Source of the DNA: Symmachiella dynata
Lineage (GTDB): Bacteria; Planctomycetota; Planctomycetia; Planctomycetales; Planctomycetaceae
Assembly: GCF_007747995.1 (NCBI RefSeq)
Contig: NZ_CP036276.1
Coordinates: forward strand, 3,711,001 to 3,775,000
Length of the DNA stretch: 64,000 nt
Direction: 5' to 3'
Under the pieces are notes generated by a model. It was not told the origin of the DNA. It made no database searches and saw only the letters and a program-made list of their open reading frames with translations. Every line of letters begins with the position of its first letter. Position 1 is the stretch's first letter. A program made the translations under genes and the position numbers. Shown in pieces: positions 8,940 through 48,646 of the stretch.

Positions 8940-9620
8940 TCACGCAGCCCGTTCGTACCACTGGATCAGCCCGCCGAGTCGTTCGTGGCGGATGATGTCA
9001 TCGAGTACGATGGTGTTGTTCTCGGGTGGCGGATCTGCGCATGACGGCGGTAAATGCCTACAGGCAGAATGCGCGCGGTCATCGTTATAATAGCGGACGT
9101 ATTCACGGACGAGGTAATTCAGGTGCCGTTCGCCAAACACCAGAAAATTTTCCAAGCATTCCTGTTTGATGCTCTGAATGACCCGTTCGCAGCGCGAATT
9201 GAGATTGGGGCTCTGGACCGGCAGAACCTTGACTTTCAATCCCTCCGCTTTGAGGACTTCGTCGAAGCTTGCCGTGAACTTTGTGTCGCGATCGCGCATC
9301 AGATTAGTCGGTTTTTCGTCGCGATCGGCGGTGTGCATCAAAAAGTTCCGCCCCTGCTGTGTGACCCACGCGGAATCGGGATGCGCCGTGGAGTTGGTGA
9401 CGAAGATCTCGCGAGTCTCAACGTTAATGAAGACCAGCAGGAAATAGTTCACGATTCCGCGCGGCGTGATGACGCGTTGCGTGAAGAAATCGCAGGCCCA
9501 AAGCGTTTTGGCGTGGATCTTGATGAAATGTTCCCAGGAGCCGCGGGAACGCTTGGGCGAGGTGTCGATCCCCCGTGGGGGATAGTGGCTTGCTTCAAGA
9601 TTCGCGGTATCAAGAGTTGA
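8940..9620 (-). pseudogene. Truncated rve/DDE transposase (IS3/IS481-like)
   Basis: This is the C-terminal two thirds of an integrase-core transposase. It aligns by eye along its length with the complete 354-residue copy at 21663-22727, starting near that copy's residue 150. Asp in WACDFFTQRV, Asp in LMRDRDTKF and Glu in NSRCERVIQSIKQE preserve the catalytic triad. The helix-turn-helix N-terminal about 150 residues are missing, and the sequence before about 9570 does not match, so it cannot make a working enzyme. It marks an old insertion at the upstream edge of the 9826-21606 operon. Confidence 0.8.
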
Positions 9621-9825
9621 AACAACGGTGGAACTCGAGATAACGGCCATGCATTTACGTATGTCGCTATCCTGCGGCGGATCGCATCGAAATTGCCGTA
9701 CCTGAATATCCGACGCACATAGGGTTTTTACTAGCCCCTTGGGAATTCTTGGAATTTCCCCAGAAAACTTGGTAGGGTTTGGTAATCGCTATTCCAACGC
9801 AGCTATGAGCGTGGAGGGCCATACA

Positions 9826-10059
9826 ATGCCAAGGTTGGACGAGTATCTGACGATCACGGAAGCGGCGGATTACCTCGGTGTGTGTACGAACACATTGAGG
9901 AACTGGGGAGCGAGTGGAAAGATTAAGGAACGCCGAAATCCCATTAATAGTTATCGCTTGTACGCTCGCGATGACCTTGATGCCGTGCTTCAGCAAATCA
10001 ATGACTCTGGCGAATACCCATCGGGCTGGTCGAAGCCTCGCAAGCGAAAACCTCGTTGA
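9826..10059 (+). CDS. Small MerR/excisionase-like HTH DNA-binding protein
   Basis: A 77-residue winged-helix protein. The segment YLTITEAADYLGVCTNTLRN is a classic MerR/excisionase recognition helix, followed by a wing with RNPINSYRLY and a C-terminal basic tail RKRKPR. The start at 9826 is set by GGAGGG at 9813-9818; a longer frame to 9739 lacks such support. Its stop lies within 20 bp of the next gene's start, so it is translationally linked to the giant helicase. The most likely job is autoregulation of the operon, as small HTH proteins often do in defence loci; target sites were not identified. Confidence 0.75.
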   Translation: MPRLDEYLTITEAADYLGVCTNTLRNWGASGKIKERRNPINSYRLYARDDLDAVLQQINDSGEYPSGWSKPRKRKPR

Positions 10060-10073
10060 GAAATGAGAAGTCT

Positions 10074-13000
10074 ATGGTCGATTCGAAATCAATTCTGGAG
10101 AAGCTGGAAAGCGCGCGGCGTGACCTGCTTGACCTAACTGGTCGTAACCGATTGATCAGTACGCCCCGATCGAGCACACGTTCGGGGCGACTGGAGATCG
10201 TGGACGAATTGGCCGAGGCCGTATACCGAATCCTCGTTCAAGAAAACAAGATGATGTCTTTTCTAGCCCGTCCTGAAGATGGCGGTGAAGAGACTGATTC
10301 AACGAACGGCGAACTCTTACTGTTCCAGCCGGACGACGAAGACGAGCAAGATAATAGTGGGGTCGCAGAACGCCATGTCGATCGAAATCTCCAAACGACG
10401 TTTGCATCGGAACAATTGCAGCGAAAGCTGCTTAAGCTCTATTACGATGCACGAACGTTCAAAGAGGAACAAGGTGTCAACATTCTTTACCTGGCGATCG
10501 GGTTTCTGAAGTGGTACGAAGATGACAACTCGGACAGAGAACGCTATGCACCCTTGCTGTTGATTCCTGTTGAACTCGACCGGAAATCTGCGAACGCTCG
10601 ATTCCGATTGCGCTACACCGATGACGACATCACGACCAACCTGTCTTTACAGGAAAAACTCAAAGCCGACTTTGGGATATCCTTACCAGACGTTCCTGAT
10701 GTGGATGAACTTGCGCCTCAAAATTACTTTGAGCAAGTGCGAACTGCCATCGAGCGGAAGGAGCGGTGGCAGGTTCTGGACAATGACATGGTGTTGTGGT
10801 TTTTTTCGTTCGCCAAATTCTTGATGTACAGGGACCTCAAGCCGGAGACGTGGGATGGGGAACGCCAAATTGAAGGACATCCGCTGGTTTCGGCATTGCT
10901 GCAAGATGGATTTCGCCAAGATCCATCCTTTTGCCCTGACGATCAGAATATCGACCGCTTTCTGCAACCGTTGGACATGATTCACGTTATGGATGCTGAT
11001 AGTTCACAGACGGTGGCGATTGAGGAAGTACGGCAAGGAAGAAACCTAGTCATTCAGGGCCCCCCTGGCACTGGGAAATCGCAAACGATCACAAATCTCA
11101 TTGCCACTGCCGTCAAAGAAGGGAAGCGGGTACTATTTGTCGCCGAGAAAATGGCTGCCCTCGAAGTTGTGAAAAGGCGCTTGGATAACGTGGGGCTGGG
11201 CGACATGTGCCTAGAACTACACAGCCACAAGGCTAATAAGAAGGCTGTGTTAGAGGAGCTTAGCCATACTCTCAATCTTGGCCGTCCCAGTATGGACGAC
11301 GTGGTCGGCCAAGCCGAGGATTTAACTGCCTATCGCGATAAGTTGAACCGCCACGCCGAGATCATGCATTCCTATTTGGAGCCGGGACACGTCACTCCCT
11401 TTCGAGCATTGGGCGAGTTGGTCAGGCTACGTGCGATGGGGATGCAGCCGGCAGATTTTAAACTGGTGGATGCATTGACTTGGAGTGCTACCGACCTTCG
11501 AGAAAAGCAGCACATGCTGGAGGACCTAGCAGTCCACATGCGTGAAGTTGGGAATCCGCGTCAGCATCCATGGCGCGGGGTCCGGTTGCAGTCCGTGTTG
11601 CCGATGGACAGATCACGGATTGCTTCGACACTACCGGGGTTGTTAGAGCGTCTTGACAGGCTAATCACGGCGACGAATGATCTCGCTGATATGCTTTGTT
11701 TTGGCGACGCCGATACACTCGGGGCCATTTCATCACTTGCCAAATTTGCTGACCGTCTGCGTAAGGCGCCACGCATGGATCGACAGGCAATGGCGAATCC
11801 GGCGTGGATTGAACGACGGCAAACACTTGTGGAATGTCAGAAAGCTGGGCAGGAGCTTGCCGCCAACCGTGCCAGCCTTGGGCCGCTGGTGGCGGAAGTC
11901 GCCTGGACGACGGACGTAGGTGCGGCACGCCGCGACCTGGCTGCACATGGCCGCTCCTGGTTCCGCTTTTTCAATAGCGACTACCGTCGTGCTCAAGCGA
12001 CGCTGCGCGGGATTCTCAGCGCCGAGCTTCCCCCCCCTCTCGACGAACGGCTTGAGATCCTCGACCGTCTCATCCAGACGCAACAGGCAACTCAGATGCT
12101 GAGCGACTCCCATCACAATCAAATCGGCCAAGAAGCGTTTGGAATGCTTTGGCGCGGTGCAGACTCTAATTGGACCGAGATCAATGAGGTGCTGACATGG
12201 GAACGAGAGTGTCAAGAAGCCGATATTCCCGACAATTTCCGTTATGTCCTAGCGCAGATAGAAGACCTCGAGGCGGTCAAGTTGCTGTTCAAACGAATTG
12301 CCAAAGACCTCAAGCCACTATTCACAGAAGTTCAGCTGCTTTTCAAGCAACTCGATTTGGATCTGCAGCAATCTTTTGATACGCGCGATGTCAAGGTCGT
12401 ACCACTTGTTGATCTCCGCGAGCGGATTCAATCCTGGCATGATGATCCAGAAGCGTTGACAAAGTGGATTGCGTATTTCATACGCTGGCGCAAGCTAGAT
12501 GAGAATGGAATGGGGCCGTTGGCCGAAAAGCTGGGAGAGGGGACAATTTCGGCGGACAATTCTCTCAACCGTTTTCAGATGGCTTATTTCGAAGACTTAA
12601 TGCGGGAAGCATTTCAACAGCATTCTGAGTTGGCGGAGTTCGATGGCGTATCACACGAAAAGCTCTTAAAGAAATTTCGTGAGCTAGATCTCCAACGCAT
12701 CGCTTTGGCCAGGCAGGAGGTTGCGAACGCTCATTTCCAACGCATGCCGACGCAAGGTGGAGATGCCGGCGAACTCGGGATATTGCGACGAGAGATGAAG
12801 AAAAAGCGAAAACACCTACCTCTCCGCAAGCTACTACTACAAGCGGGCCATGCCGTTCAGGCCGTGAAGCCGGTGTTCATGATGAGTCCAATATCTGTTG
12901 CTCAATACCTCGAGCCGGGAATATTGGATTTTGATCTCCTGGTTATTGACGAAGCCAGTCAAGTACGGCCAGTCGATGCGATAGGCGCCGTTGCACGAGC

Positions 13001-14849
13001 ACGGCAAGTAGCCGTTGTGGGCGATGATCGCCAACTGCCGCCGACTCATTTCTTCAGTCGCGTGGTGGGTGAGGAAAACGAGCCAGACGATGACGGCGAC
13101 TTCCAGGCAAGTGATCTTGAGAGCATCCTGGGACTCTGTTTGGGACAGAACATGCCGCAGCAAATGCTGAAATGGCACTACAGGAGCCGACACCATTCGT
13201 TAATCGCCGTGTCCAATCGCGAGTTTTATGGGGACGGACTCTACGTTGTCCCGAGCCCCTTCAATGGCAAAAGTAATTCTGGGCTGAGTTTTCGTCATAT
13301 TCCCGATGGGATTTATGATCGTGGCGGTTCGAGAACGAATGCGAGAGAGGCGATTGCTATTGCTGAAGCTGTCATTGAACACGCGCAACGAACCCCAGAC
13401 AAAACACTTGGTGTGGGAGCTTTTTCCGTTTCGCAACGCGATGCGATTCTCAATGAATTGGAATTGAGGCGTCGACAAACGCCTGAATTGGAAGCCTTCT
13501 TCTCTACGTCCCAGGCAGAGCCATTCTTCGTTAAAAACCTGGAGAATATCCAGGGGGACGAACGCGATGTGATTCTGATTTCCGTAGGGTATGGAAAGGA
13601 TGCGTCCGGGTACATGTCGATGAGCTTTGGCCCACTCAATAGTGATGGCGGCGAACGACGGCTGAACGTGCTCATTACCCGCGCTCGCGAGAGATGTGAA
13701 ATTTTTTCCTCGATCACTGCGGATGACATCGACCTCAATCGTACCAAGGCACGTGGTGTTCAAGCATTTAAGACTTTCTTGACCTACGCGAAATCAGGTT
13801 TCCTTGATTCGGCCGGCGTCGCAGGTGGTGTACACGACTCGGAGTTTGAAAGACAGGTTTGCCAGGCCCTAGTGGGGTTGGGGTTTCAGGTTGATGCACA
13901 GATTGGCGTTGCCGGTTTTTTCATTGACCTGGGGGTTGTTGATCCAGATCAGCCCGGTCGTTATCTCCTGGGTATTGAATGCGACGGGGCGTCTTATCAT
14001 TCGTCTCGATCGGCCCGCGATCGAGACCGGTTGCGTCAGCAGGTGCTTGAAGATCGTGACTGGATCATCCACCGAATCTGGAGTACCGACTGGTTTCATC
14101 GCCCGGAAGATCAACTTCGAAAAGTGGTGGCGGCCATTGAGGACGCGCGTGCAACTTGGGCAAGTCGCTCTGGCATTTACACGCAACCGACAGACAGGCT
14201 TGCGTTAAAACCTGTGAATGAAGCTATTGTTCGACATGATGAGATAATCGATGACGACGTTCCTCCCGATGCGATTAGTGTCATCCCCTACGTTGAGGCT
14301 GCCTTTGTCGTGGATACGACTTATGACATCCACCAGGTCGATTTGGGGCAATTAGCAAAGATTGCTTCTCGTGTCGTCAGCATCGAGGGACCAGTGCATC
14401 AAGATGAAGTTGTCCGGCGCGTCGCGACTCTATGGGGTCTCAAGCGTGCGGGAAAGCGAATCGCAGCGGCAGTTGAAGAGGCACTTGCGGAAGCAGCTTA
14501 TCGGAGCAGTATCGCCCAGTATGGTCTTTTCTACAGTCCAGCTAAACAGGAATGTGTTCCGATTCGCGATCGTACCGAAGTCATTTCGGCAAATCTTCGC
14601 AAAACAGAATACCTGCCGCCCACCGAAATACGGGAAGCGCTAGCGGCCGTCGTTGGGGTAAATTTGGGAATGGACTCAGATGAAGCAGCAACCGAGGTTG
14701 CGCGACTATTGGGCTACAAATCTACCAGTTCGCAGCTCAAACAAGTTATCAGCGACGAAGTCTCAGCGTTGATTGAATGCGAATTGTTAGAACAAAGAAA
14801 TGGGAAGCTTTACGTTCGTACCGAATCAATGAGCGTTTCGACGAACTAA
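10074..14849 (+). CDS. DUF4011 - SF1 helicase - Vsr/REase-like nuclease - DUF3320 giant protein
   Basis: About 1,591 residues. Residues 5-190 resemble DUF4011 (SARRDLLDLTGRNRLIS near the start). A superfamily I helicase core follows, with Walker A GPPGTGKS at about 329-336, Walker B VIDEASQ with Asp959-Glu960, GDDRQLPPT as motif III, and late motifs with NIQGDERDVILIS and LNVLITRAR. Residues about 1240-1360 form a Vsr/MTES_1575-type endonuclease domain with GIECDGASYHSS and HRIWSTDWF. The end matches DUF3320. This architecture is known from stand-alone antiphage proteins (HheA-like; recalled, not searched) and implies DNA unwinding plus cleavage. The start is uncertain: ATG at 10074 has GAGAAG close upstream, while TTG at 10056 overlaps the preceding stop. 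It is the core of the six-gene operon, with no frameshift or missing helicase motif. Confidence 0.85.
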   Translation: MVDSKSILEKLESARRDLLDLTGRNRLISTPRSSTRSGRLEIVDELAEAVYRILVQENKMMSFLARPEDGGEETDSTNGELLLFQPDDEDEQDNSGVAERHVDRNLQTTFASEQLQRKLLKLYYDARTFKEEQGVNILYLAIGFLKWYEDDNSDRERYAPLLLIPVELDRKSANARFRLRYTDDDITTNLSLQEKLKADFGISLPDVPDVDELAPQNYFEQVRTAIERKERWQVLDNDMVLWFFSFAKFLMYRDLKPETWDGERQIEGHPLVSALLQDGFRQDPSFCPDDQNIDRFLQPLDMIHVMDADSSQTVAIEEVRQGRNLVIQGPPGTGKSQTITNLIATAVKEGKRVLFVAEKMAALEVVKRRLDNVGLGDMCLELHSHKANKKAVLEELSHTLNLGRPSMDDVVGQAEDLTAYRDKLNRHAEIMHSYLEPGHVTPFRALGELVRLRAMGMQPADFKLVDALTWSATDLREKQHMLEDLAVHMREVGNPRQHPWRGVRLQSVLPMDRSRIASTLPGLLERLDRLITATNDLADMLCFGDADTLGAISSLAKFADRLRKAPRMDRQAMANPAWIERRQTLVECQKAGQELAANRASLGPLVAEVAWTTDVGAARRDLAAHGRSWFRFFNSDYRRAQATLRGILSAELPPPLDERLEILDRLIQTQQATQMLSDSHHNQIGQEAFGMLWRGADSNWTEINEVLTWERECQEADIPDNFRYVLAQIEDLEAVKLLFKRIAKDLKPLFTEVQLLFKQLDLDLQQSFDTRDVKVVPLVDLRERIQSWHDDPEALTKWIAYFIRWRKLDENGMGPLAEKLGEGTISADNSLNRFQMAYFEDLMREAFQQHSELAEFDGVSHEKLLKKFRELDLQRIALARQEVANAHFQRMPTQGGDAGELGILRREMKKKRKHLPLRKLLLQAGHAVQAVKPVFMMSPISVAQYLEPGILDFDLLVIDEASQVRPVDAIGAVARARQVAVVGDDRQLPPTHFFSRVVGEENEPDDDGDFQASDLESILGLCLGQNMPQQMLKWHYRSRHHSLIAVSNREFYGDGLYVVPSPFNGKSNSGLSFRHIPDGIYDRGGSRTNAREAIAIAEAVIEHAQRTPDKTLGVGAFSVSQRDAILNELELRRRQTPELEAFFSTSQAEPFFVKNLENIQGDERDVILISVGYGKDASGYMSMSFGPLNSDGGERRLNVLITRARERCEIFSSITADDIDLNRTKARGVQAFKTFLTYAKSGFLDSAGVAGGVHDSEFERQVCQALVGLGFQVDAQIGVAGFFIDLGVVDPDQPGRYLLGIECDGASYHSSRSARDRDRLRQQVLEDRDWIIHRIWSTDWFHRPEDQLRKVVAAIEDARATWASRSGIYTQPTDRLALKPVNEAIVRHDEIIDDDVPPDAISVIPYVEAAFVVDTTYDIHQVDLGQLAKIASRVVSIEGPVHQDEVVRRVATLWGLKRAGKRIAAAVEEALAEAAYRSSIAQYGLFYSPAKQECVPIRDRTEVISANLRKTEYLPPTEIREALAAVVGVNLGMDSDEAATEVARLLGYKSTSSQLKQVISDEVSALIECELLEQRNGKLYVRTESMSVSTN

Positions 14850-14913
14850 GTCTTCAGGATTGTTTCAGCGAGTTAAGAAAATTCGTGAAGCCAGAAATGT
14901 GTCGGAGGCGGAC

Positions 14914-15852
14914 ATGGCGTTCGAGTGGTATTTTCAAAATAATGGTAAAGAATCTGGGCCAGTATCTCCCAAGACGTTGTTGCAATTGGCCCGCGACGGA
15001 TATCTGAATCCTGATGATTTCGTCCGCAGAAATGATATGGAAAAATGGCAGCCAGCCCGCAAGGTCAAGGGATTGACTTTTCCTGACGGTCAACCTGGGG
15101 TCGACGCAGATTCGGGGCACACCAAGAATTCGTTACCTGAGCGTAGTAATTCTCAGAAGAGCGCGGTCCGGCAATTGGTAGAAAGTGCCGTGACGGAGAG
15201 TGGGAAATCGGTACAACTATTTGATGATGGTACTTGGCATTTGGTCGCTACTCCGGTTCTGGAAAAAGATTCTGATGAAAAGTCGACGTCGATTGCCGTC
15301 GTGTCTTCAAATAGACCTCAAAGTACGTTGGAGAATTCCTTTCGGCAAATTCGGTGGGGGTACTCAGAACGTGAAGTGCGGGACAGTGAAGCGTCGGAAC
15401 CTATTCATGAACATTCCGGCGCGTTGTTTTATGAAGGTCGCATTGCAGACTTTCCGTGCCGCATCATCTACGTATTTGCCAGAGAGATCTGCGTTAGGGC
15501 AAAATACTCCATCCTCGAAGAACACTCAAACGAGAACCTCTACCTTGATGACTATTTCAAATTGAAAGAATTGTTGTTGAAAAAATACGGCCGCCCCGTC
15601 ACTTCAAGCGGACAACATAGCGATTTCGTCTGGTTGGACTCACTTTTTCAAGATGATGAGTCCGATTGGGGTCGCGCAGTTGCTGCCGGTCATCTGGCAC
15701 TGCAGTCTCAATGGGAAACCGAGGACACCTGCATAGACCTAGTGCTCCACGGAGATAATTTCGAGATTTCACTCGCTGTGGAATACTGGAGCAAAGAAAT
15801 GGGACACCTCGAAGAGGAGGAAAAACATGAACAGCACCTCGGCGATCTCTAA
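14914..15852 (+). CDS. GYF_2-domain protein of unknown function
   Basis: A 312-residue protein. The ATG at 14914 is preferred because GGAGG lies five bases upstream; a TTG at 14860 would be longer but is unsupported. Residues about 3-52 form a GYF_2 domain (FEWYFQNNGKESGPVS followed by LLQLARDGYL and WQPARKV), a small module thought to bind proline-rich or partner proteins. A low-complexity linker of about 70 residues follows, then a C-terminal globular part of about 180 residues with no recognised motif and a Glu-rich end. No signal peptide or transmembrane segment. It lies 64 bp after the giant helicase and 52 bp before the GIY-YIG gene, in the same direction. It could be an adaptor or sensor in the complex; that is inference from position. 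Confidence 0.68.
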   Translation: MAFEWYFQNNGKESGPVSPKTLLQLARDGYLNPDDFVRRNDMEKWQPARKVKGLTFPDGQPGVDADSGHTKNSLPERSNSQKSAVRQLVESAVTESGKSVQLFDDGTWHLVATPVLEKDSDEKSTSIAVVSSNRPQSTLENSFRQIRWGYSEREVRDSEASEPIHEHSGALFYEGRIADFPCRIIYVFAREICVRAKYSILEEHSNENLYLDDYFKLKELLLKKYGRPVTSSGQHSDFVWLDSLFQDDESDWGRAVAAGHLALQSQWETEDTCIDLVLHGDNFEISLAVEYWSKEMGHLEEEEKHEQHLGDL

Positions 15853-15904
15853 CAGTTGGGGCTGTTCAACCGAAGAAGGATTGGCCACGCCAGTGGAGTA
15901 ATTC

Positions 15905-16765
15905 ATGGAACTAAATGATCTTTTCAAATCGCACGGCATCGACCCCAAGTCTGTGATTGTGATGCGACATCGACCGATCGAGCCGGAATTGAGAAAAGTA
16001 CTCCCGTGGCTCGCTGCCGAACATCCCGATACCTATAACGCCTATCAGCAGTCGCAAGGTCCCCGTCTGGAAAAATCGATGCAACGGGCTCAATACGTGG
16101 CTTCGTTTATTGGTCATCAACCTTCAAAAGGTCTTTTTGTTGGACTCTACAAGGTCGTCAATTGGAAGGAATACCCACGTCAGAAGTTTTGGAAAATGCC
16201 TGGTGCCAAACAACTCCAAACGTTTGGGATGCTTGAAACAAAACGGGAAGAGTTTCTTTGGTTCAATCTTCCGTTGACGGAGTTTTATTCCGCATGGAAG
16301 GGAAAGCTCGTCATCACATGGCCTGGTAATGAGCGATCTTGGTGGCGTTGGGCCGAACGCAATACTATCCCTATCGGCGCAATTCACGAGCAGAGTCTGC
16401 TCGACGAGAAGATGCCGAGTTGGGATGAATTGATTCTGACATGGGACGAATTGCCGGTATTGCCGTCTACCTGGAAAGCCGTGATGGGACAGTGGCGAGG
16501 TGTCTATTACATTTTTGATGAGTCAGATGGCAAAGGGTATGTCGGCTCCGCATACGGCAGCGAGAATATCTTGGGACGCTGGCTCAATTATGCAGCAACG
16601 GGACATGGTGGCAATAAACTTCTACGTCAACGAGACTGTACTTTTTTTCAATTCTCAATTTTACAGCGAGTGTCGCCAGACTCCGAGGCCAACGAAGTCA
16701 TTCGTTTGGAGTCCTCGTGGAAGGAGCGGTTGCACACCCGTGAATACGGCCTCAACGTAAATTGA
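15905..16765 (+). CDS. GIY-YIG nuclease with novel N-terminal domain
   Basis: A 286-residue protein with GGAG six bases before the ATG. Residues about 196-286 form a GIY-YIG endonuclease: GVYYI at 199-203, YVGSA at 212-216, catalytic Arg225 in LGRW, and the metal-binding Glu269 in RLESSWKERL. All key residues are present. The first about 190 residues (Trp-rich, with SWWRWAERN) are not a family I know and may bind DNA or recognise the target. The nuclease domain sits at the C-terminus, as in many defence-associated GIY-YIG proteins. It lies between the GYF_2 gene and the YhaO-like gene (39 bp gap), giving the operon two nucleases in addition to the Vsr-like one. Confidence 0.8.
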   Translation: MELNDLFKSHGIDPKSVIVMRHRPIEPELRKVLPWLAAEHPDTYNAYQQSQGPRLEKSMQRAQYVASFIGHQPSKGLFVGLYKVVNWKEYPRQKFWKMPGAKQLQTFGMLETKREEFLWFNLPLTEFYSAWKGKLVITWPGNERSWWRWAERNTIPIGAIHEQSLLDEKMPSWDELILTWDELPVLPSTWKAVMGQWRGVYYIFDESDGKGYVGSAYGSENILGRWLNYAATGHGGNKLLRQRDCTFFQFSILQRVSPDSEANEVIRLESSWKERLHTREYGLNVN

Positions 16766-16804
16766 GAACGTACGGTTGATAGACCCAATGGAAGAGACAC
16801 GCGT

Positions 16805-18073
16805 ATGAAGTTCATCCACGCAGCCGACATCCATCTCGACAGCCCCTTATGTGGTTTGTCTCGTTACGACGGAGCCCCCGTCGACGAACTGCGAGGTGCG
16901 ACGCGACGAGCGTTGCAGAATTTGGTCGAAATATCAATCGACGAAGATGCCGATTTCGTGTTGATTGCCGGTGACGTTTACGACGGCGATTGGAAAGACC
17001 ACAACACTGGCTTGTTTTTCGTGTCCCAAATGGCACGTCTAAACGACGCAAATATACCAGTTGTACTCATCAACGGAAATCACGACGCGGCCAACAAGAT
17101 GACCCGCGAGTTGCGACTACCGGTTAATGTGACGCGCCTGTCACACAGGAAGGCTGAGACAGCGAAGTCGCCGCGACTTGAAGAGCTTGGTGTCGCGATC
17201 CACGGCAGGTCCTTTGCCAATGCGGCTGAACATGACAATTTCGCGAGTGATTACCCTGAAAAGAAACCTGGGATGTTTAACATTGGGCTGCTTCACACAT
17301 CTTTAACTGGCGCTGAAGGGCATGAACCGTATGCTCCGTGCACTCTCGACGACCTTCGTAGAAAAGGATACGACTATTGGGCCCTCGGACATGTCCACAC
17401 GCGGGCGATTCTTTGCGATGATCCGTTCGTGGTTTTTCCAGGGAACATTCAAGGACGGCACATTCGAGAACCGGGCCCCAAAGGCTGTTACGTCGTGACC
17501 ACGGAATCATCCGGAGGCTGCCAACTCGACTTCTACGGACTCGACGTGGCCCGATGGGAACAAGTGCTTGTAAACGTGCGAGACACTCAGTCCAAGGAAG
17601 AAGTGCTTGATCGTTGCAATGACGCTTTGGTGGAGCTGGCTGATGGAAACGAAGGTAAACCTCTTGCAGTACGCGTGACGCTTTCCGGAGCAACACCAGC
17701 GCATCAGGCGCTACTTTCCGATCAGGTCGACGCGACAAACCAGATTCGGTCGATAGCCATGTCGGCAACCGGGAATCGGGCTTGGATTGAAAAAGTCGAA
17801 TTCCGGACATCACCGCCGGCTTCTCTCAGCGACGTTTCGGAGACTGACGGACCGCTTGCAGAACTCGTACAATATATTGAGGAGTTGCGGGGCAATCCAA
17901 GTTCGCTGCAGGCCTTGTCGACTGCGCTCTCGGAGTTAAGGAAAAAGCTGCCGGACGACGTGTTGCGTGGCCCAGATGCCATTCTGCTAGACAAAACAGA
18001 TTTCTTGACTGGGGTGATGAACGATGTGCAGGCGATTCTGGTTCAGCGATTGAGCGAGGAGCCGAAAGAATGA
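16805..18073 (+). CDS. YhaO/Mre11-type DNA exonuclease (metallophosphoesterase)
   Basis: A 422-residue Mre11/SbcD-class nuclease, nearest in layout to YhaO. The metallophosphoesterase motifs are all present: Asp8 and His10 in AADIHLDSP, GDVYDG at 56-61, GNHD at 91-94, His164 in LLHTSL and GHVH at 195-198. The C-terminal about 200 residues form the capping and ATPase-binding region. The family degrades DNA ends and opens hairpins with a Rad50-like partner. The stop overlaps the next gene's start by four bases (ATGA at 18070), a sign of tight coupling. In this operon it may process ends produced by the helicase-nuclease or GIY-YIG protein. A housekeeping SbcCD-like role cannot be excluded, but embedding in a mobile, IS-flanked operon argues for defence or specialised repair. 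Confidence 0.88.
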   Translation: MKFIHAADIHLDSPLCGLSRYDGAPVDELRGATRRALQNLVEISIDEDADFVLIAGDVYDGDWKDHNTGLFFVSQMARLNDANIPVVLINGNHDAANKMTRELRLPVNVTRLSHRKAETAKSPRLEELGVAIHGRSFANAAEHDNFASDYPEKKPGMFNIGLLHTSLTGAEGHEPYAPCTLDDLRRKGYDYWALGHVHTRAILCDDPFVVFPGNIQGRHIREPGPKGCYVVTTESSGGCQLDFYGLDVARWEQVLVNVRDTQSKEEVLDRCNDALVELADGNEGKPLAVRVTLSGATPAHQALLSDQVDATNQIRSIAMSATGNRAWIEKVEFRTSPPASLSDVSETDGPLAELVQYIEELRGNPSSLQALSTALSELRKKLPDDVLRGPDAILLDKTDFLTGVMNDVQAILVQRLSEEPKE

Positions 18074-21000
18074 AGGTGTTGCGACTCGATCTTCGAGCAT
18101 TTGGGCCATTCACAAATGTGACTCTGTCACCGGACGATGGCAAGTTTGGGTTGCACATCGTCTATGGCCCCAACGAGGCCGGAAAGAGTTCCTCTCTGCG
18201 GGCGTTGCGGCAGTGGTTGTATGGTATACCCCACAACAGCACTGACGACTTCGTTCACCAGTACTCCGACATGCGGATCGGAGGAGTGCTCGAACACGAT
18301 GGCAAACGATTGGAATTTATCAGACGAAAAGGACGCATCAAAACTATACGAGCTGCAGATGACACCGATGTCATCGACGACGTAGAGCTGTCACGTGTTT
18401 TGGGAGGAGTCGACGAGACTGCGTTTAGTCACCGGTTCGGTGTTGATTACGAGGAGCTGCGACGCGGCGGGCACGCAGTAGCGCATGGCAGCGGTGATCT
18501 CGGCGAGCTTTTGTTTTCGGCCGGCGCCGGAGTGGCCGATCTGGGACGCATTCAGAAGCAGCTCGAAATCGATGCGGAGGAGCTTTTTAAGCCGCGTGGG
18601 TCAAAACAACGAATTAATGAAGCGACTGGCAAACTGAAAGAGGCGACACAGCGCGTTAGGACGCATTTGCTGCCGACAGCCAGATGGAGAGACCTCGACA
18701 AGGCAGTTCGAGACGCCGAAACGCGTAGAAACGAAATTGACGCCGAATTGGGCACGCACAGGAAGCGTGTCAGTTATCTGGATCGGGTGGAAAGTGCACT
18801 TCCCTTGATCGGAAAGAAGCAAGAGCTCACGGTCGCATTTGAATCTGTCGTGGATGCACCGCGGCTGCCCAAGGAGTTTTCAGAAACTCGAAGCCAGCTG
18901 GTCGTAACACGTCGGCATGCGGAAAGCAGCAAGCGTGACGCACAGCGCGACATCGAATCGCTGCGTGAGAAAATCGACGCGATTGTCCTGCCGACGGGAT
19001 TGCTGGAAAAGCGAACAACTATCAATGAGCTCAAAGACAGACTCGGAGCTTGGCAAAAGGCTCAGAAGGATCGTCCGGCACTAATCACACGAAAGCAGAG
19101 TGCGGAAGAACGAGTCGTTGAGATTCTCGGAGAGCTCGGCAAACCTCTCGATCTCACGGCAGCAGAGCATCTAAAAGTCAGTAGCATACTCAGCCAGAGG
19201 ATTCAGTCGCTGGCAAAGCGTCATGTGGCCGTACAAACGGAACTCAATGGTGCACGGAGCCGCAAGGCGACTCTCGAACGCGAACTGAAGTCCAATCAGG
19301 AGAGGATCGCTGCGCTGCCTCCCGATACAGACACCCGGCCGCTGCGTCGAACGCTTCGCGACGTCGCCGAGCGAGGACAGCTCGATCAGAAGTTAAAGCA
19401 AGCCGAAGAATCAGCATCGACCGAGGAAGACAACGCGCAACGAAAACTCTCTCAACTGCGACTCTGGCGGGGACAACTCGACGAATTGGAACAGTTGCCC
19501 ATTCCGGCCATTGATACGATCGAACGATTTGAGGGCGAGCTTCACGACGCAGATCGTTCACTCCAGCAGGCGATGGATGACCTGGATAAGTTGCAGCAGG
19601 AAAATGAAGAGCTGACGAGGGAGCAGAAGTCGCTAGAGCTTGAGCAACGTGTTCCGACGGAAGCGGAACTAGAAAGCGCCCGACGCCGACGCGATGAAGG
19701 CTGGAACCTGCTGGTCCGCATACTCGACGGCACACAGCCTGCCGAGATGCCGGAAACGGCATCGTTCATTCACGAGTTCGCCCCGGACGGAAATCTACAG
19801 GATGCGTTTCATGCAAGCGTGTCACAGGCTGATGAGATCAGTGACCGGCTGCGACGTGAAGCAGATCGGGTATTGCGACTGGCGCAGTTGCGGGCTGACA
19901 TTGACAGCAATCAGAGTCAACAGCGGACGCAAAGTGAGAAATGCGACGATAGGCGAGGAGTCCGATCGGAACTTCAAAAAGACTGGGAAGCACAATGGGA
20001 AGCGGTCGGCATTCGCCCATTGCCGCCACGAGAAATGCGATCTTGGCTTCGCTCACATGAGGAACTGACAGTTATTTCACGGACTCTGCGGACGTATCGA
20101 CTTGAAGTGGAATCTGTTTCTGCAGACATCAAAGATTGCCGTGACAGCCTCGTAAAGTGCCTTGCCTCGCTCGGTAAGTCACCGGAAGCGAATGGTGGCA
20201 GTCTACGATCATTGGTAGATCAGTGCACGGAAATTGCAGATTCGATTGAGGAAGACAACCGCATTCGCAGGGAATGTGCGCAGGAATTAGATCGCAATGT
20301 GAAAGAGCTAAAGAATGTCGAACAGGCCTTGGCACAAGCGGTTGACGCTGCCGAAGAATGGCAGAGTGAGTGGGAACAGGCAATTGCGGAGTTGGACGTG
20401 ACAGCTGCGTCAGACCCAGACGTCGCAAACAGCATTCTGCAGCTGATTACGAAGTTGGAGGAAGAATTACGAGACAGAAACCGTTTCGAAGAGCGCATTA
20501 CCGGCGTTGACAACGAATCAACCGCATTTGCAGACGACGTACGAGTGCTGGTGGAAGCTGTGGCACCCGACCTGCTGGATAGCCCGATTGCCAGTTCGGT
20601 AGATGATCTCTTCGATCGATTGACACGAGCGGAAAAAGACCACGTGAAACAGGAGGGACTGGAGCAACAGTTAAGCGACGCGGAAAAGCGGCTCAACGAT
20701 GCCAGTTCCAATGGGCGTGATGCCGAGCAGCATCTTCAGGAGCTTTGCACTTTGGCGGGTGCCAATTCCGTCGATGAGCTTCCTGAAATAGAACGGCGGG
20801 CCGGTCAGAGGACTGAACTTGAGCGGCAGATCGCAGAAGTAAATTCTAGATTGACGGACTTGGCTGCCGGCGTTTCTCTGCATGATTTCGCTGAATCGGT
20901 ATCCGAGTATGACGTCGACGCCGTTCGTGCTGAGAAAGGGAAACTAGATGACTGCATTGCGTCGCTCGAAAACGAACGGCGGATCACCGATGAGTCGATT

Positions 21001-21606
21001 GGCGAAAACCGAAACGAGTTGCAGCGAATGGATGGCCAGTCGCTGGCAGCCGAGGCCCAGCAGCAGGCGGAATTGCTGGTGTCGGAGATCCGCCAAGACG
21101 CGGAGGAGTTTATACGGCTACATCTGGCATCAGTGGTCCTCAAACAAGCCATTGAGCGGTATCGTGAAAGTAGTCAGGGGCCCGTCCTGGAGCGAGCTAG
21201 TGATTTGTTTGCGCGGCTGACTCTGAACTCTTTCTCCGGCCTGCGAGCTGAATTCAACGATAAGGGCGAAGCGGTCATTGTAGGAGTTCGCGCCGAAAAC
21301 GGACGTCTGGTGTACGTGCATGGCATGAGTGAAGGGACGTGTGACCAGCTGTACCTTGCCCTCCGACTGGCCGTGCTTGAGGCGTCAATCAGTTCCGGGC
21401 GACATTTGCCGTTCGTGGTGGACGATGTGTTAATCATGTTCGACGATGTGCGTGCAGCAGCTGCATTACAGGTTTTTGCGGAGCTATCGAGTAAGACACA
21501 AGTGATTTTTTTCACACATCACGAACACTTGATTGAATTGGCACGTGCAACTGTGCCCGACACTGTTCTGTTCGTCCACCAATTAGAAGGATCAGGCACG
21601 CCGTGA
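18070..21606 (+). CDS. YhaN/Rad50-like SMC-type ATPase
   Basis: An 1,178-residue partner of the preceding nuclease. The N-terminal ATPase half has Walker A GPNEAGKSS at 33-41; the C-terminal half has signature-like GMSEGTCDQLYLALRLA and Walker B LPFVVDDVL followed by a His-rich FFTHHEH switch. Between them about 900 residues are heptad-rich, Glu/Arg/Leu coiled coil interrupted by short breaks. There is no obvious CxxC zinc hook, which fits YhaN better than SbcC. A GAGGAG motif precedes the ATG inside the upstream gene. The expected product is an ATP-driven clamp that presents DNA ends to the YhaO-like subunit. Its stop is 57 bp from an oppositely oriented transposase, so any seventh operon gene would have been cut off there. 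Confidence 0.87.
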   Translation: MKVLRLDLRAFGPFTNVTLSPDDGKFGLHIVYGPNEAGKSSSLRALRQWLYGIPHNSTDDFVHQYSDMRIGGVLEHDGKRLEFIRRKGRIKTIRAADDTDVIDDVELSRVLGGVDETAFSHRFGVDYEELRRGGHAVAHGSGDLGELLFSAGAGVADLGRIQKQLEIDAEELFKPRGSKQRINEATGKLKEATQRVRTHLLPTARWRDLDKAVRDAETRRNEIDAELGTHRKRVSYLDRVESALPLIGKKQELTVAFESVVDAPRLPKEFSETRSQLVVTRRHAESSKRDAQRDIESLREKIDAIVLPTGLLEKRTTINELKDRLGAWQKAQKDRPALITRKQSAEERVVEILGELGKPLDLTAAEHLKVSSILSQRIQSLAKRHVAVQTELNGARSRKATLERELKSNQERIAALPPDTDTRPLRRTLRDVAERGQLDQKLKQAEESASTEEDNAQRKLSQLRLWRGQLDELEQLPIPAIDTIERFEGELHDADRSLQQAMDDLDKLQQENEELTREQKSLELEQRVPTEAELESARRRRDEGWNLLVRILDGTQPAEMPETASFIHEFAPDGNLQDAFHASVSQADEISDRLRREADRVLRLAQLRADIDSNQSQQRTQSEKCDDRRGVRSELQKDWEAQWEAVGIRPLPPREMRSWLRSHEELTVISRTLRTYRLEVESVSADIKDCRDSLVKCLASLGKSPEANGGSLRSLVDQCTEIADSIEEDNRIRRECAQELDRNVKELKNVEQALAQAVDAAEEWQSEWEQAIAELDVTAASDPDVANSILQLITKLEEELRDRNRFEERITGVDNESTAFADDVRVLVEAVAPDLLDSPIASSVDDLFDRLTRAEKDHVKQEGLEQQLSDAEKRLNDASSNGRDAEQHLQELCTLAGANSVDELPEIERRAGQRTELERQIAEVNSRLTDLAAGVSLHDFAESVSEYDVDAVRAEKGKLDDCIASLENERRITDESIGENRNELQRMDGQSLAAEAQQQAELLVSEIRQDAEEFIRLHLASVVLKQAIERYRESSQGPVLERASDLFARLTLNSFSGLRAEFNDKGEAVIVGVRAENGRLVYVHGMSEGTCDQLYLALRLAVLEASISSGRHLPFVVDDVLIMFDDVRAAAALQVFAELSSKTQVIFFTHHEHLIELARATVPDTVLFVHQLEGSGTP

Positions 21607-21662: not shown

Positions 21663-22727
21663 TCAGGCAGCGCGTCGCTCGTAGTGGCGGAGCAGCCCAC
21701 CCAGTCTTGTCCGACATTCAATCAGAATGGTGTCGGGCGGATCATCTTTCGGTCCCGGCCAGTCTCCTGTGAGCAGAAAGTTGCCAATAGCCTGATGCGG
21801 TCGCTCCGTGTGGTAGTGTTCGATGTACTCTGAAATTAAGTAGTCAAAGTGCTTTGGGCCACACGCGATGAAATAATCCAACGCCTCCTGTTGCAGGCTC
21901 TGGATAAACCGCTCGATGTGCGCCTGTAGGTTGGGAGCCCGCACGCTATTCTTCTTCACCTTGATGCCAGCATCTCGCAGGACTTTGTCGAAGTCCTGGC
22001 GGTAAAGACTGTCCCGATCGCGCAATATCAACGTGGCTTCTTGGCCTGTGGATTTCACGTGTTCCACAAATCGCTGGGCCTGCTCATTCATCCATTCCGT
22101 CGTCGGTTTCCGCGTGCATTTCGTCACGAACACCTTGCGACTGCCTATATGTAGGAATACCAACACGAAGTACTGTCGCGGGCCAAACTTGGTCCAGACG
22201 CGTTTCGAAAAGAAATCGCACTGGTAAAGTGTTTCCGCATGCCGCTTGAGAAACTCATGCCAGCTATCCGGTCCGCGGTTCGGGCCTGGATCGAGGTCAT
22301 GCGATTTCATGATCCTCTTGACCGTGTTGCGAGACGGTGGTTTGAGGCCCAACTTCTTGAGTTCCCCCATGATGCGGGTGTAGCCCCAACCGGTCTCCGA
22401 GCCGATCTTCACGATCAATTTGCGGATCGATTCGGCGGTCCGCGGCCGGCCCATCTTCTTGGGCTTATGACCGCCCCGCTCTTTTCGCAGCCAACTCAGA
22501 AATGTGTTGTACGACACGATCGTGATCAGATGCTTGAGGTCGGACCCGATCCCCTGCCCTAGTTTCATCAGCCGCGCCTTCTCCTCTGGCTCGAGGAAGA
22601 TCCGCTTCTTGCCCACGCGTTTGCGGAGCATTTCGTTTTCCGCTTTGAGCCACTCGACCTGCCGGATCAGTTCGTTACGGGTGCATCGTGCGAGCAGAAA
22701 CAGTAGCGGCTGGAAAACCCGTCCCAT
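21663..22727 (-). CDS. rve-family transposase, full length (IS3/IS481-like)
   Basis: A 354-residue transposase: an N-terminal coiled and helix-turn-helix region (residues about 15-145, including GRPRTAESIRKLI), then an integrase core with Asp171 in QCDFFSKR, Asp237 in LRDRD and Glu272 in AHIERFIQ. The last two acidic residues are 35 apart, as in DD35E enzymes. The C-terminus carries HTERPHQAIGN. It is the intact relative of the truncated copy at 8940-9620; the pair brackets the six-gene operon. Clear terminal inverted repeats were not found, so the element's limits are not given. There is no frameshift, so it could be active. Confidence 0.85.
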   Translation of the reverse strand: MGRVFQPLLFLLARCTRNELIRQVEWLKAENEMLRKRVGKKRIFLEPEEKARLMKLGQGIGSDLKHLITIVSYNTFLSWLRKERGGHKPKKMGRPRTAESIRKLIVKIGSETGWGYTRIMGELKKLGLKPPSRNTVKRIMKSHDLDPGPNRGPDSWHEFLKRHAETLYQCDFFSKRVWTKFGPRQYFVLVFLHIGSRKVFVTKCTRKPTTEWMNEQAQRFVEHVKSTGQEATLILRDRDSLYRQDFDKVLRDAGIKVKKNSVRAPNLQAHIERFIQSLQQEALDYFIACGPKHFDYLISEYIEHYHTERPHQAIGNFLLTGDWPGPKDDPPDTILIECRTRLGGLLRHYERRAA

Positions 22728-23022: not shown

Positions 23023-24525
23023 TTACGAGGAGGGTTTGGCACGGGGAGGAGTTACGCCGATCGTTCCCTCCTGTCCGTCGTAATCAACCCGCTTCAATAA
23101 ATCCTGCAGCAGGAGCGCTTGTTCCCCCATGGAGAGACCGTCCCAAAGCGGATCGAAACCCGCCAATGCGGCGCGGACGTCGGCTTCTGTTAGGTGCTCG
23201 CGCTGCAATTCGGTCAATTCGTTGCGGATCTCCGCCAACCGGCGTTCGGCCGCCGCCACCTGCTGTTGGGCGTTCGCTAGACGACGCTGATCATCGACTG
23301 CCGCCCAGCGTTCCATTTCGCCCGCAAGTCGTCCTAGTTCCCGCGACAATTCCCGCGCTTCGTCGTCCAAGGATTGCTGGTCTGTCTCCCATTCCGCGCT
23401 CAGGGCGGCCAATGTGTCGGCGACCAGCCTGGGGTCGCGACCAATCTCGCGAATTTGGTCGACGACGAACCGCTCGATCTCGGCGGCGGGAACCGGTTGG
23501 GAGGGGCAAGCGGCCCGGCCTAGCTTTTGTGACTTGTTGCAAACGTAATAGCGGTAGCAGCGGGTCTTTTTGCGGACGGTGTGTGCATGGGACATGTGGC
23601 AACCGCAGGGGGCACAACGTAACAGTCCCTTCAGCGGTGCCGCATAGCCGTTCTGTGCCGCGGCAGTTTTATTGGTGCGGTTCAGTCGCAATAAATGCTG
23701 CACACGCTGAAACGTAGCAGGATCAACGATCCCCGCATGTTGTCCGTCGTAGATCGTCTGTTGGTAGCGGACCTTGCCGCTATAGGCCACATTCGTGAGC
23801 AGCTTATGCAGGCTAGTCTTGTCGAATGCTCGCCCGCCGCGCGTGGTCTCTTTTTTGGTGACCCAGCGTTTTGTCGTCCAACCTTGACGATTCACCTCGG
23901 CGACTGCCGACAACAAGGACTGGTGCTCCAAATAGAACGCGAAGATCGTGCGGACCTGTTCCGCTTCGGCATCGTTGACGACTAATTTCGTGTCGATGAT
24001 GTCGTAGCCCAGGATCGGTGGGCCGCCCACGTATTTTCCTTTGCGACGAGCGGCCGCCATCTTGTCCCGTGTCCGTTCGGAGATCATCTCCCGCTCGAAC
24101 TGGGCAAACGACAACAGAATATTCAGCGTCAACCGCCCCATGGAATGCGTCGTATTGAACTGTTGCGTAACTGAGACAAACGACACACCGTGCGTCTCAA
24201 AGCTTTGCATCATGCGGGCGAAGTCGAGGAGACTGCGGCTGAGCCGGTCGACTTTGTAGACCACGACGCAATCGATCTGGCCCGCCTCGATGTCTTGTAG
24301 CAGCCGTTTCACACCGGGCCGCTGCATGTCGCCTCCCGAAAATCCCCCGTCGGAATAATCGTCGGCTAGCACCTGCCAACCTTCGTGCCGATGACTGGCA
24401 ATGAACGCCTCGGCCGATTCACGCTGTGCGTCGAGAGAGTTGAAATCTTGGTCGAGTCCCTCGCTGGTCGATTTGCGGGTGTAGATCGCGCAGCGGATGG
24501 TAGAAGTTTTGCAATTGCTGTTCAT
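23023..24525 (-). CDS. Large serine recombinase
   Basis: A 500-residue site-specific recombinase. Residues about 10-160 form the resolvase catalytic domain with nucleophile Ser19 in YTRKSTSE and the arginine-bearing YKVDRLSRS motif. A recombinase domain follows (about 170-270), then a zinc-ribbon-like segment with CAPCGC and later Cys residues (about 307-345), then a coiled coil (about 380-445). This is the architecture of enzymes that integrate and excise phages or islands. The ATG overlaps the stop of the DUF2924 gene by a few bases and AAAGGAG lies seven bases upstream, so the two are a translationally coupled pair. It is likely the integrase of an element in this region; the attachment site is not proven. 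Confidence 0.9.
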   Translation of the reverse strand: MNSNCKTSTIRCAIYTRKSTSEGLDQDFNSLDAQRESAEAFIASHRHEGWQVLADDYSDGGFSGGDMQRPGVKRLLQDIEAGQIDCVVVYKVDRLSRSLLDFARMMQSFETHGVSFVSVTQQFNTTHSMGRLTLNILLSFAQFEREMISERTRDKMAAARRKGKYVGGPPILGYDIIDTKLVVNDAEAEQVRTIFAFYLEHQSLLSAVAEVNRQGWTTKRWVTKKETTRGGRAFDKTSLHKLLTNVAYSGKVRYQQTIYDGQHAGIVDPATFQRVQHLLRLNRTNKTAAAQNGYAAPLKGLLRCAPCGCHMSHAHTVRKKTRCYRYYVCNKSQKLGRAACPSQPVPAAEIERFVVDQIREIGRDPRLVADTLAALSAEWETDQQSLDDEARELSRELGRLAGEMERWAAVDDQRRLANAQQQVAAAERRLAEIRNELTELQREHLTEADVRAALAGFDPLWDGLSMGEQALLLQDLLKRVDYDGQEGTIGVTPPRAKPSS

Positions 24526-25019
24526 CGGCTAGCTCCTTTCCCGTCCAGGCGAAAGAACAGAAACCCGTTGGTATGCGAGCCGGTGATCGCCTTGGCGACC
24601 GCCGATAGCGACTTGTACGTCTCCCCTTCGTATTCGAACCCGTCGTCGAGAATGGTCACATTGATCGAGCCTCCTTTATAGTTACGGGTCAGCACCGTTC
24701 CCGGCATGGGAATCCGCTGGTCGTGTGTTTGCGGAAGAGGAACGTTTTTTGTTGCTGTCGATGGTTCGGACAGCTCGTGCCCTTGCGGCGGTTTGAGACG
24801 TAGGTCGGCGTCGTTGGCCAATTCGGTCGCTCGCCGACGTGCGCGCTCCGACAAGTCCCCCTCAGCGTTGGCCTGCAACCGCCAGGCAATCCGTTTGATC
24901 AACCATGTCTTGTGGTTGGACCGGCAAGCTTCGCCGAACAGCTCTTCGAAACGCGTCCGCAATTCGCGGGACGTCATGCGCCGCATGGCGGCTACCTCTT
25001 TGTGAATGTTGAGTGGCAT
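24522..25019 (-). CDS. DUF2924 protein, recombinase partner
   Basis: A 165-residue protein with AAGGAG upstream of its ATG. It has the DUF2924 layout: an N-terminal helical part MTSRELRTRFEELFGE with NHKTWLIKRIAWRLQ, then a C-terminal DNA-binding-like part containing GTVLTRNYKGG, YEGETYKSLSAVAKAITG and NGFLFF. This family is commonly encoded just upstream of serine recombinases, as here. Its role is presumed accessory DNA binding during recombination, but that is not established. Confidence 0.85.
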   Translation of the reverse strand: MPLNIHKEVAAMRRMTSRELRTRFEELFGEACRSNHKTWLIKRIAWRLQANAEGDLSERARRRATELANDADLRLKPPQGHELSEPSTATKNVPLPQTHDQRIPMPGTVLTRNYKGGSINVTILDDGFEYEGETYKSLSAVAKAITGSHTNGFLFFRLDGKGASR

Positions 25020-34094: not shown

Positions 34095-34208
34095 GAAAAC
34101 CTCGCATATGTTTAAAAGGAGCCCAACTGCATGTATCACAACAAAGTAGTTAAATCCGTCGATGCACAAGCACGCTTTGACATCACACCTCGGCTAAATA
34201 CGATTGAA
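28244..34208 (-). repeat. 5,965-bp direct repeat, unit 1
   Basis: Matches 37079-43043 at a constant offset of 8,835 bp, with no indel and no difference seen. It covers 114 bp upstream of the RHS start plus all codons down to the final PLGL of the core, and stops exactly where the two tails begin to differ. Confidence 0.9.
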
Positions 34209-42929: not shown

Positions 42930-43043
42930 GAAAACCTCGCATATGTTTAAAAGGAGCCCAACTGCATGTATCACAACAAAGTAGTTAAATCCGTCGATGC
43001 ACAAGCACGCTTTGACATCACACCTCGGCTAAATACGATTGAA
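37079..43043 (-). repeat. 5,965-bp direct repeat, unit 2
   Basis: Partner of 28244-34208. Both flanks differ completely from unit 1: at 43044 upstream of the gene, and at 37078 in the tail. The limits are therefore sharp at both ends. Confidence 0.9.
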
Positions 43044-48564: not shown

Positions 48565-48646
48565 CCCTGCCGCCACGCGATGTCGCCAGCACCCCATCGT
48601 CGGATTGCGGAGCGTGTCGGAATGCTGAACTGGGAGCGGAATCGAA

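Follow-up and report, generated by a model that had tools for sequence, protein, structure and literature searches.

An operon-like row of defence and DNA-processing genes in a strain-variable region of the Symmachiella dynata genome

Gene content of the row

The stretch of DNA analysed here (hereafter, the window; 64,000 nucleotides, bases 3,711,001–3,775,000 of the 7.77-Mb single-contig genome of Symmachiella dynata) encompasses six open reading frames (ORFs) at positions 9826–21606, all on the plus strand. PSCyt and DUF1501 genes outside the window point to a planctomycete. These genes encode a putative regulator with a helix-turn-helix (HTH) domain, a giant helicase-nuclease of the PDC-S37/ProA family, a GYF_2 domain protein, the GIY-YIG nuclease UzuA and the YhaO/YhaN pair, and are probably a stack of modules for defence and DNA processing, operon-like in arrangement but inherited separately, within a strain-variable region, rather than an obligate six-part system. 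The intergenic gaps are 14, 64, 52 and 39 bp, followed by a 4-bp overlap between YhaO and YhaN, such that the coordinates confirm the initial annotation, which had described six co-directional genes with gaps of at most 64 bp or small overlaps; the three nuclease chemistries and two ATP motors that it had counted are borne out by domain matches and intact motifs. Scans for promoters and terminators returned no excess over shuffled sequences (6 vs 7.9 and 12 vs 12.5, respectively).

The giant (10074..14849, plus strand; 1591 amino acids (aa)) combines DUF4011, a superfamily 1 (SF1) helicase (AAA_11 and AAA_12), a Vsr-like MTES_1575 nuclease and DUF3320; its ORF opens at a TTG at 10056, with an ATG at 10074. 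Residues 11–1586 align with positions 4–1545 of the 1550 positions of the PADLOC profile PDC-S37 (1956.5 bits), and the score with the NCBIfam model NF058533 (ProA) is 1699 bits, above the cut-off of 1500, the alignment starting from position 348 of this 1903-residue model. The Walker, DEAS and nuclease motifs are present (GTGKSQ, DEASQV, IECDGASYH and TRAR). We assign the giant to PDC-S37/ProA, a described defence family; membership in Hhe was rejected (1132.7 bits with NF042953, cut-off 2000). A literature search on ProA and PDC-S37 matched nothing. In Pseudomonas aeruginosa, one core defence hotspot is bordered by a DUF4011 gene (PMC10250203). Elsewhere in the S. dynata genome, at 1.16 Mb, a 1758-aa ORF encodes a second large ProA/Hhe-like protein (genome G000, locus L102, 7801–13077; 34% over residues 904–1357 of ProA).

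UzuA (15905..16765, plus strand; 286 aa) was initially annotated as a GIY-YIG nuclease with a new domain. The protein matches the UzuA model PDLC03973 over its full length (residues 1–286 on positions 3–278 of 278; 264.9 bits), which assigns it to Uzume, a described defence family, and not to a new one. In an alignment of 40 sequences, the catalytic residues Y201, Y212, G214, R225, E269 and N284 are invariant, and the AlphaFold2 model built from this alignment has a mean predicted local distance difference test (pLDDT) score of 94.8. A Foldseek search with the model retrieved I-TevI (E 1e-3), the next distinct matches being ASCH structures from Zymomonas, of which the best, 5y6c_A (ZmASCH), is weak (E 0.024, probability 0.91, TM-score 0.42 by target). 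The Foldseek output comes without the aligned range, and we infer that the ASCH match falls on the N-terminal half of UzuA. A sequence-profile search of PDB chains returned only I-TevI and chance-level matches, and among viral structures the best 50 of 631 matches are phage GIY-YIG endonucleases that span roughly one third of UzuA and do not inform on the other domain.

ASCH is a member of the PUA superfamily, in which some proteins read modified bases (PMC7641849). The cited sources describe ASCH as a predicted, unproven reader of N6-methyladenine (6mA) and one ASCH protein that hydrolyses N4-acylated cytosines (PMC11037411), and a fusion of ASCH to a restriction-enzyme domain has been reported from mobile neighbourhoods (PMC10853773). 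Two kinds of GIY-YIG protein have been described as well, fusions with EVE and modification-dependent wH-GIY-YIG enzymes (PMC7641849, PMC11037411). Given the possible ASCH/PUA-like plus GIY-YIG layout of UzuA, modification-dependent cleavage is predicted, although we consider the chances that UzuA cuts modified DNA to be about evenly balanced. Uzume is grouped with systems marked as unknown and largely uncharacterised in the table of a 2026 review (PMC12926258), and in the Bacillus cereus group the majority of Uzume genes are plasmid-borne (PMC11811056).

The last two genes encode YhaO (16805..18073, plus strand; 422 aa), an Mre11/SbcD-like phosphoesterase (Metallophos, 56.5 bits) with the motifs DIH, GD, GNHD, HTS and GHVH, and YhaN (18070..21606, plus strand; 1178 aa), a Rad50-like AAA_27 ATPase (228.7 bits) that has a long coiled coil, the Walker A motif GPNEAGKS and the signature GMSEGT. 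No CxxC hook was found in the YhaN sequence, and its match to Rad50 in the PDB is weak (29.5 bits). We identify the two proteins as a YhaO/YhaN, that is, Mre11/Rad50-like, pair. SbcD proper was rejected for YhaO (62.2 bits with TIGR00619, cut-off 77.65), and so was Lamassu, given that YhaN scores 41.9 bits with LmuB but no single stretch passes, and none of the eight proteins scanned matches LmuA at E 0.1. Among the papers pairing YhaO with YhaN, none is about defence by its title, and no mention of YhaN was found among the matches listed for Mre11 and defence. YhaO is scarcely represented in phages, with 9 of 50,697 records matching and none covering 80% of the query.

The GYF protein (14914..15852, plus strand; 312 aa) consists of a GYF_2 domain (56 bits) and a C-terminal domain of unknown function. 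No family cut-off other than that of GYF_2 was passed, the C-terminal region having no Pfam match except a doubtful one to DUF3157, and there is no membrane segment (highest 19-residue hydropathy, 0.9). Matches were found in 44 of the 246 genomes of our phylum sample and are almost always confined to the GYF_2 domain; among the scored candidates, the relatives of the C-terminal domain (G097, two in G106, and G049) are separate proteins in three other genomes, and both domains are joined only in the S. dynata genome itself. The small separate relatives include two in G106 (L098 and L099), and two begin with a hydrophobic stretch, as lipoproteins or secreted proteins do (judged by eye). Neither the 72,556 plasmid records (E 1e-3) nor a scan of viral contigs yielded relatives of the GYF protein, and its single-sequence structure model was useless (pLDDT 36). 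The protein would be an orphan cytoplasmic adaptor or a passenger.

The row is headed by a gene (9826..10059, plus strand) for a 77-aa HTH_17/MerR-excisionase-like small DNA-binding protein, the putative regulator (HTH_17, 45.6 bits). Its 35-bit match to PADLOC mad1 brought up MADS, which was rejected at 16.1 bits with NCBIfam MAD1 (cut-off 80); the other mad matches among the eight scanned proteins are weak (mad8, 35 bits, on ProA; mad3, 16 bits, on YhaN). As for a conserved HTH-ProA pair, the HTH query, which at 77 aa is a weak one, had no match in 8 ProA loci, and no HTH Pfam match was found for the upstream genes in the ProA loci L077, L078, L079, L082 and L084 and one further ORF in L081.

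Neighbourhoods of the relatives in other genomes

We collected UzuA neighbourhoods for the best 80 of 262 relatives in genome contigs and for three plasmid loci (83 in total, 49 of them with at least 2 kb upstream and at least 3 kb downstream). With the window proteins as queries (E 1e-4), HTH, ProA, GYF, YhaO and YhaN were found around UzuA in none of the 83 loci. UzuA relatives with identities as high as 59–60% come from other phyla, which suggests horizontal spread. For YhaO, which occurs frequently in the class (149 of 377 genomes), 121 neighbourhoods were analysed at E 1e-5, 21 from the phylum sample and 100 from a search of the class, covering all but about 45 of its 149 YhaO-positive genomes; 112 of these loci have at least 2 kb upstream. 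UzuA, GYF and HTH are absent from all 121, a ProA-like gene lies near YhaO in three, and most of the 101 listed neighbourhoods contain mixed neighbours with no common partner.

Across the 246 phylum genomes, UzuA is present in 5 (E 1e-3), ProA-like genes in 88 (E 1e-30), YhaO in 30 and YhaN in 20 (both E 1e-20). By coordinates, with two ProA candidates scored per genome, no genome other than that of S. dynata has ProA beside UzuA, and the six-gene set is found only there. Another 15 genomes carry both a ProA-like gene and YhaO; a distance of 390 kb separates the two in G152, and elsewhere they fall on separate contigs. Among the plasmid records, YhaO is found in 229 (214 covering 80% of the query), ProA-like genes in 336 (34 covering 80%) and UzuA in 387 (37 covering 80%, whereas the others may be the nuclease domain alone). 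The plasmid contexts, for which the gene tables of the collection are incomplete, include ProA without YhaO and YhaO/YhaN without ProA, and the whole row has no megablast match in the plasmids. At the level of sequence, the ProA, UzuA and YhaO/YhaN families each appear elsewhere without the others.

These counts bear on the proposal in the initial annotation that the row is a single composite defence system of six obligate parts. The spacing, the common direction and the variable region are compatible with such a system, but the set recurs in none of the 83 loci around UzuA and none of the 121 around YhaO, and the GYF protein with both domains is confined to one genome out of 246. Furthermore, the ProA and UzuA profiles model single defence proteins, Uzume and PDC-S37/ProA each being a one-gene system. 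We regard the six-part system as extremely unlikely. The co-occurrence that was expected from it failed for the full set, for pairs with UzuA, and for YhaO with UzuA, GYF or HTH, and held for PDC-S37 with YhaO/YhaN, in two orthologous loci and in one further genome whose giant is a distant relative.

In the two orthologous loci, which belong to two genera of another family (L272 in G352 and L277 in G396), a 2137-aa PDC-S37 protein ends about 100 bp before YhaO, which is followed by YhaN on the same strand. The giants score 1160 and 1167 bits with PDC-S37 and are 90% identical to each other, so that the two loci count as one event, and a third genome of this family (L261 in G427) has YhaO/YhaN without the giant. 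In the third case (L091 in G106), the giant is only distantly similar to PDC-S37 (177 bits) and is located about 1.2 kb upstream of YhaO. Another helicase-nuclease, AddAB, shows a similar placement, with AddA and AddB upstream of YhaO in 13 of the 121 loci. We estimate that chance would yield fewer than 0.01 immediate same-strand ProA-like neighbours of YhaO in 112 loci (with about half a ProA-like gene per genome and about 5000 genes), but because defence genes cluster, the excess of PDC-S37 beside YhaO is only suggestive. The theme that recurs is a helicase-nuclease followed by YhaO/YhaN, still a minority arrangement.

Three further observations concern the YhaO neighbourhoods. The order AddB-AddA-YhaO, seen for example in L104, L105, L246, L312 and L324, is consistent with a repair-type operon, for which the addAB-sbcDC operon of other bacteria provides the comparison. 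On the Methylotuvimicrobium plasmid NC_016108.1 (L332, 1–12714), a DEAD/DEAH helicase, an AAA ATPase, an unknown gene, an ATP-binding protein, YhaO and YhaN are co-directional and are followed by a recombinase; we consider this row a candidate defence operon using YhaO/YhaN. In G033, the gene for a TIR-domain protein (L094, 3680–5980) precedes YhaO/YhaN, with a few genes in between.

A more restricted unit is conceivable, in which PDC-S37/ProA and YhaO/YhaN would constitute one end-resection defence machine, the helicase-nuclease opening and cutting the DNA and the Mre11/Rad50-like pair finishing, in parallel to AddAB-YhaO/YhaN, with GYF and UzuA inserted later. The compact L272 and L277 loci, the looser arrangement in L091, the 13 AddAB loci and the Methylotuvimicrobium row, with its helicase, AAA ATPase and two further genes ahead of YhaO and YhaN, all lend themselves to this explanation. 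Yet only 3 of 121 YhaO loci have a ProA-like neighbour, one event accounts for two of them and a relative lacks the giant (L261), and none of the 15 other phylum genomes with both genes has them together. On an Indioceanicola plasmid that has ProA as well as YhaO, some 175 kb lie between them, and clustering of defence genes makes chance neighbours commoner than a uniform genome predicts. We judge this three-gene core rather unlikely. Its wider form, a joint PDC-S37/ProA and YhaO/YhaN end-resection immune machine, convergent with the AddAB-YhaO/YhaN repair operons and extended by UzuA as the first cutter with an ASCH-like reader and by a coupling GYF adaptor, seems to us a long shot.

Genomic setting and flanking elements

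Comparison with two congeners (G428 and G583) places the six-gene row in a strain-variable region. Searches of both genomes with YhaO (E 1e-40) and UzuA (E 1e-3) gave no match in either. The right flank (44–64 kb of the window) is not syntenic in the two congeners, where it retains only scattered matches of 65–73% and at most 1.2 kb, and the comparison of the flanks with these genomes did not delimit a clean empty site. In line with the initial annotation, the row is supported as a group of defence-type genes within a variable region, with family matches to PDC-S37/ProA and UzuA.

The YhaO of the window is the only close one in the S. dynata genome, and YhaO as such is widespread in the class and stands beside AddAB in 13 of 121 loci, as might be expected if YhaO/YhaN were the repair pair of the host and the other genes unrelated insertions next to it. 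However, a different Mre11/Rad50-like pair is located at 2.29 Mb, among planctomycete-type genes. The phosphoesterase of this second pair scores 20.4 bits in Pfam, just below the cut-off of 21.5. The AAA_27 protein of this pair has counterparts of 96% and 63% identity in the two congeners, and matches in 15 of 21 genomes, S. dynata included. The YhaO/YhaN pair of the row looks accessory because the search with YhaO (E 1e-40) did not find it in the congeners and because of the other pair at 2.29 Mb. YhaO/YhaN of the row are not the only Mre11/Rad50-like pair of the host, contrary to the prospect that the initial annotation had raised against itself, and we rate the host-repair explanation as very unlikely.

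On its left, the row is flanked by a short integrase-core transposase (8940..9650, minus strand; 236 aa), and on its right by a full-length one (21663..22727, minus strand; 354 aa; rve_3, 38 bits). The bracketing by related transposases is real, but with an identity of no more than 40% across 214 aligned residues, the two are kindred integrase-core proteins and not copies of one insertion sequence (IS). A composite transposon with two near-identical IS copies was rejected on the same grounds, as comparison of the window with itself gave no DNA match between them at E 1e-5. The adjacent serine recombinase is present as annotated (23023–25019 together with its partner): a large protein with Resolvase, Zn_ribbon_recom and Recombinase domains (23023..24525, minus strand), coupled to a DUF2924 protein (24522..25019, minus strand; 148.6 bits). 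A second such pair lies left of the window (G000, L117, 7511–9495; 58% and 66% identical to the pair in the window).

Several features of the window lie farther from the row. Positions 28241–34208 and 37076–43043 are copies of a 5968-bp stretch with 99.98% identity, a very recent duplication that falls inside two minus-strand DUF6531 giants of 2160 and 2166 aa, which we take to be RHS-type. Type II secretion genes (a secretin and a T2SSE ATPase) occupy 46234–50377, the congeners matching only part of the ATPase gene (65–71%). Near the right end of the window, a protein with ParB_N and N6_N4 DNA methylase domains (61285–62658) is the top match of the right flank in the congeners (67%).

Interpretation and comparison with known systems

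Separately inherited modules stacked in a strain-variable region remain, in our assessment, the probable explanation of the row, and several observations weigh against it. Co-expression of all six genes is suggested by their tight spacing and by the 4 bp that YhaO and YhaN share. PDC-S37 beside YhaO/YhaN recurs in one other family (L272 and L277) and, loosely, in G106 (L091), such that PDC-S37, YhaO and YhaN may cooperate. Of the 20 kb that precede the window on its left, about 6 kb match the congener G583, at 92% and 77%, the 77% part recurring at a second place in that genome. Finally, the fragmentation of many draft genomes can hide neighbouring genes, and the phylum search with ProA scored only two candidates per genome.

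Under the modular reading, the six genes would be transcribed together, perhaps under the control of the HTH protein. ProA/PDC-S37 would work by itself, as a helicase-nuclease moving along invading DNA and cleaving it, and UzuA as a lone nuclease whose N-terminal, possibly ASCH/PUA-like domain might read a modified base in the manner of type IV restriction. YhaO/YhaN could then degrade or trim the DNA ends left by ProA and UzuA, with the GYF protein as adaptor or passenger. A single-direction row that resembles one elaborate machine can, on this view of the locus, be a local stack of modules found separately elsewhere. The YhaO/YhaN genes beside helicase-nucleases (AddAB and PDC-S37) hint at repair-type end processing lent to defence, and the possible ASCH/PUA-like plus GIY-YIG layout offers a lead on Uzume, a system that is largely uncharacterised according to the review table (PMC12926258).

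Among known systems, the giant shares its full chain, DUF4011-helicase-MTES_1575-DUF3320, with PDC-S37/ProA, a family related to Hhe, and differs from the ProA model in lacking the N-terminal part. The HTH gene that heads the row resembles MADS in matching PADLOC mad1 and departs from it in failing NCBIfam MAD1. YhaO/YhaN are akin to SbcCD in that an adjacent phosphoesterase and AAA_27 ATPase have intact motifs, whereas the CxxC hook is missing from the YhaN of the window; elsewhere AddAB precedes the pair in 13 of 121 loci, and here UzuA and ProA do. The likeness to Uzume comprises the full-length UzuA match (265 bits) and the GIY-YIG residues kept in 40 relatives, but here UzuA shares an operon-like row with ProA, GYF and YhaO/YhaN, as in 0 of the 83 loci of its relatives. 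With CMoRE and the EVE- and wH-GIY-YIG type IV enzymes, as the cited sources describe them (PMC12923530, PMC7641849, PMC11037411), UzuA has in common a single GIY-YIG protein whose second domain might recognise modified bases. In CMoRE, a GIY-YIG type IV enzyme, the domain order is opposite to that of UzuA, with the nuclease N-terminal in the former and C-terminal in the latter (PMC12923530), and the second domain of UzuA weakly resembles ASCH.

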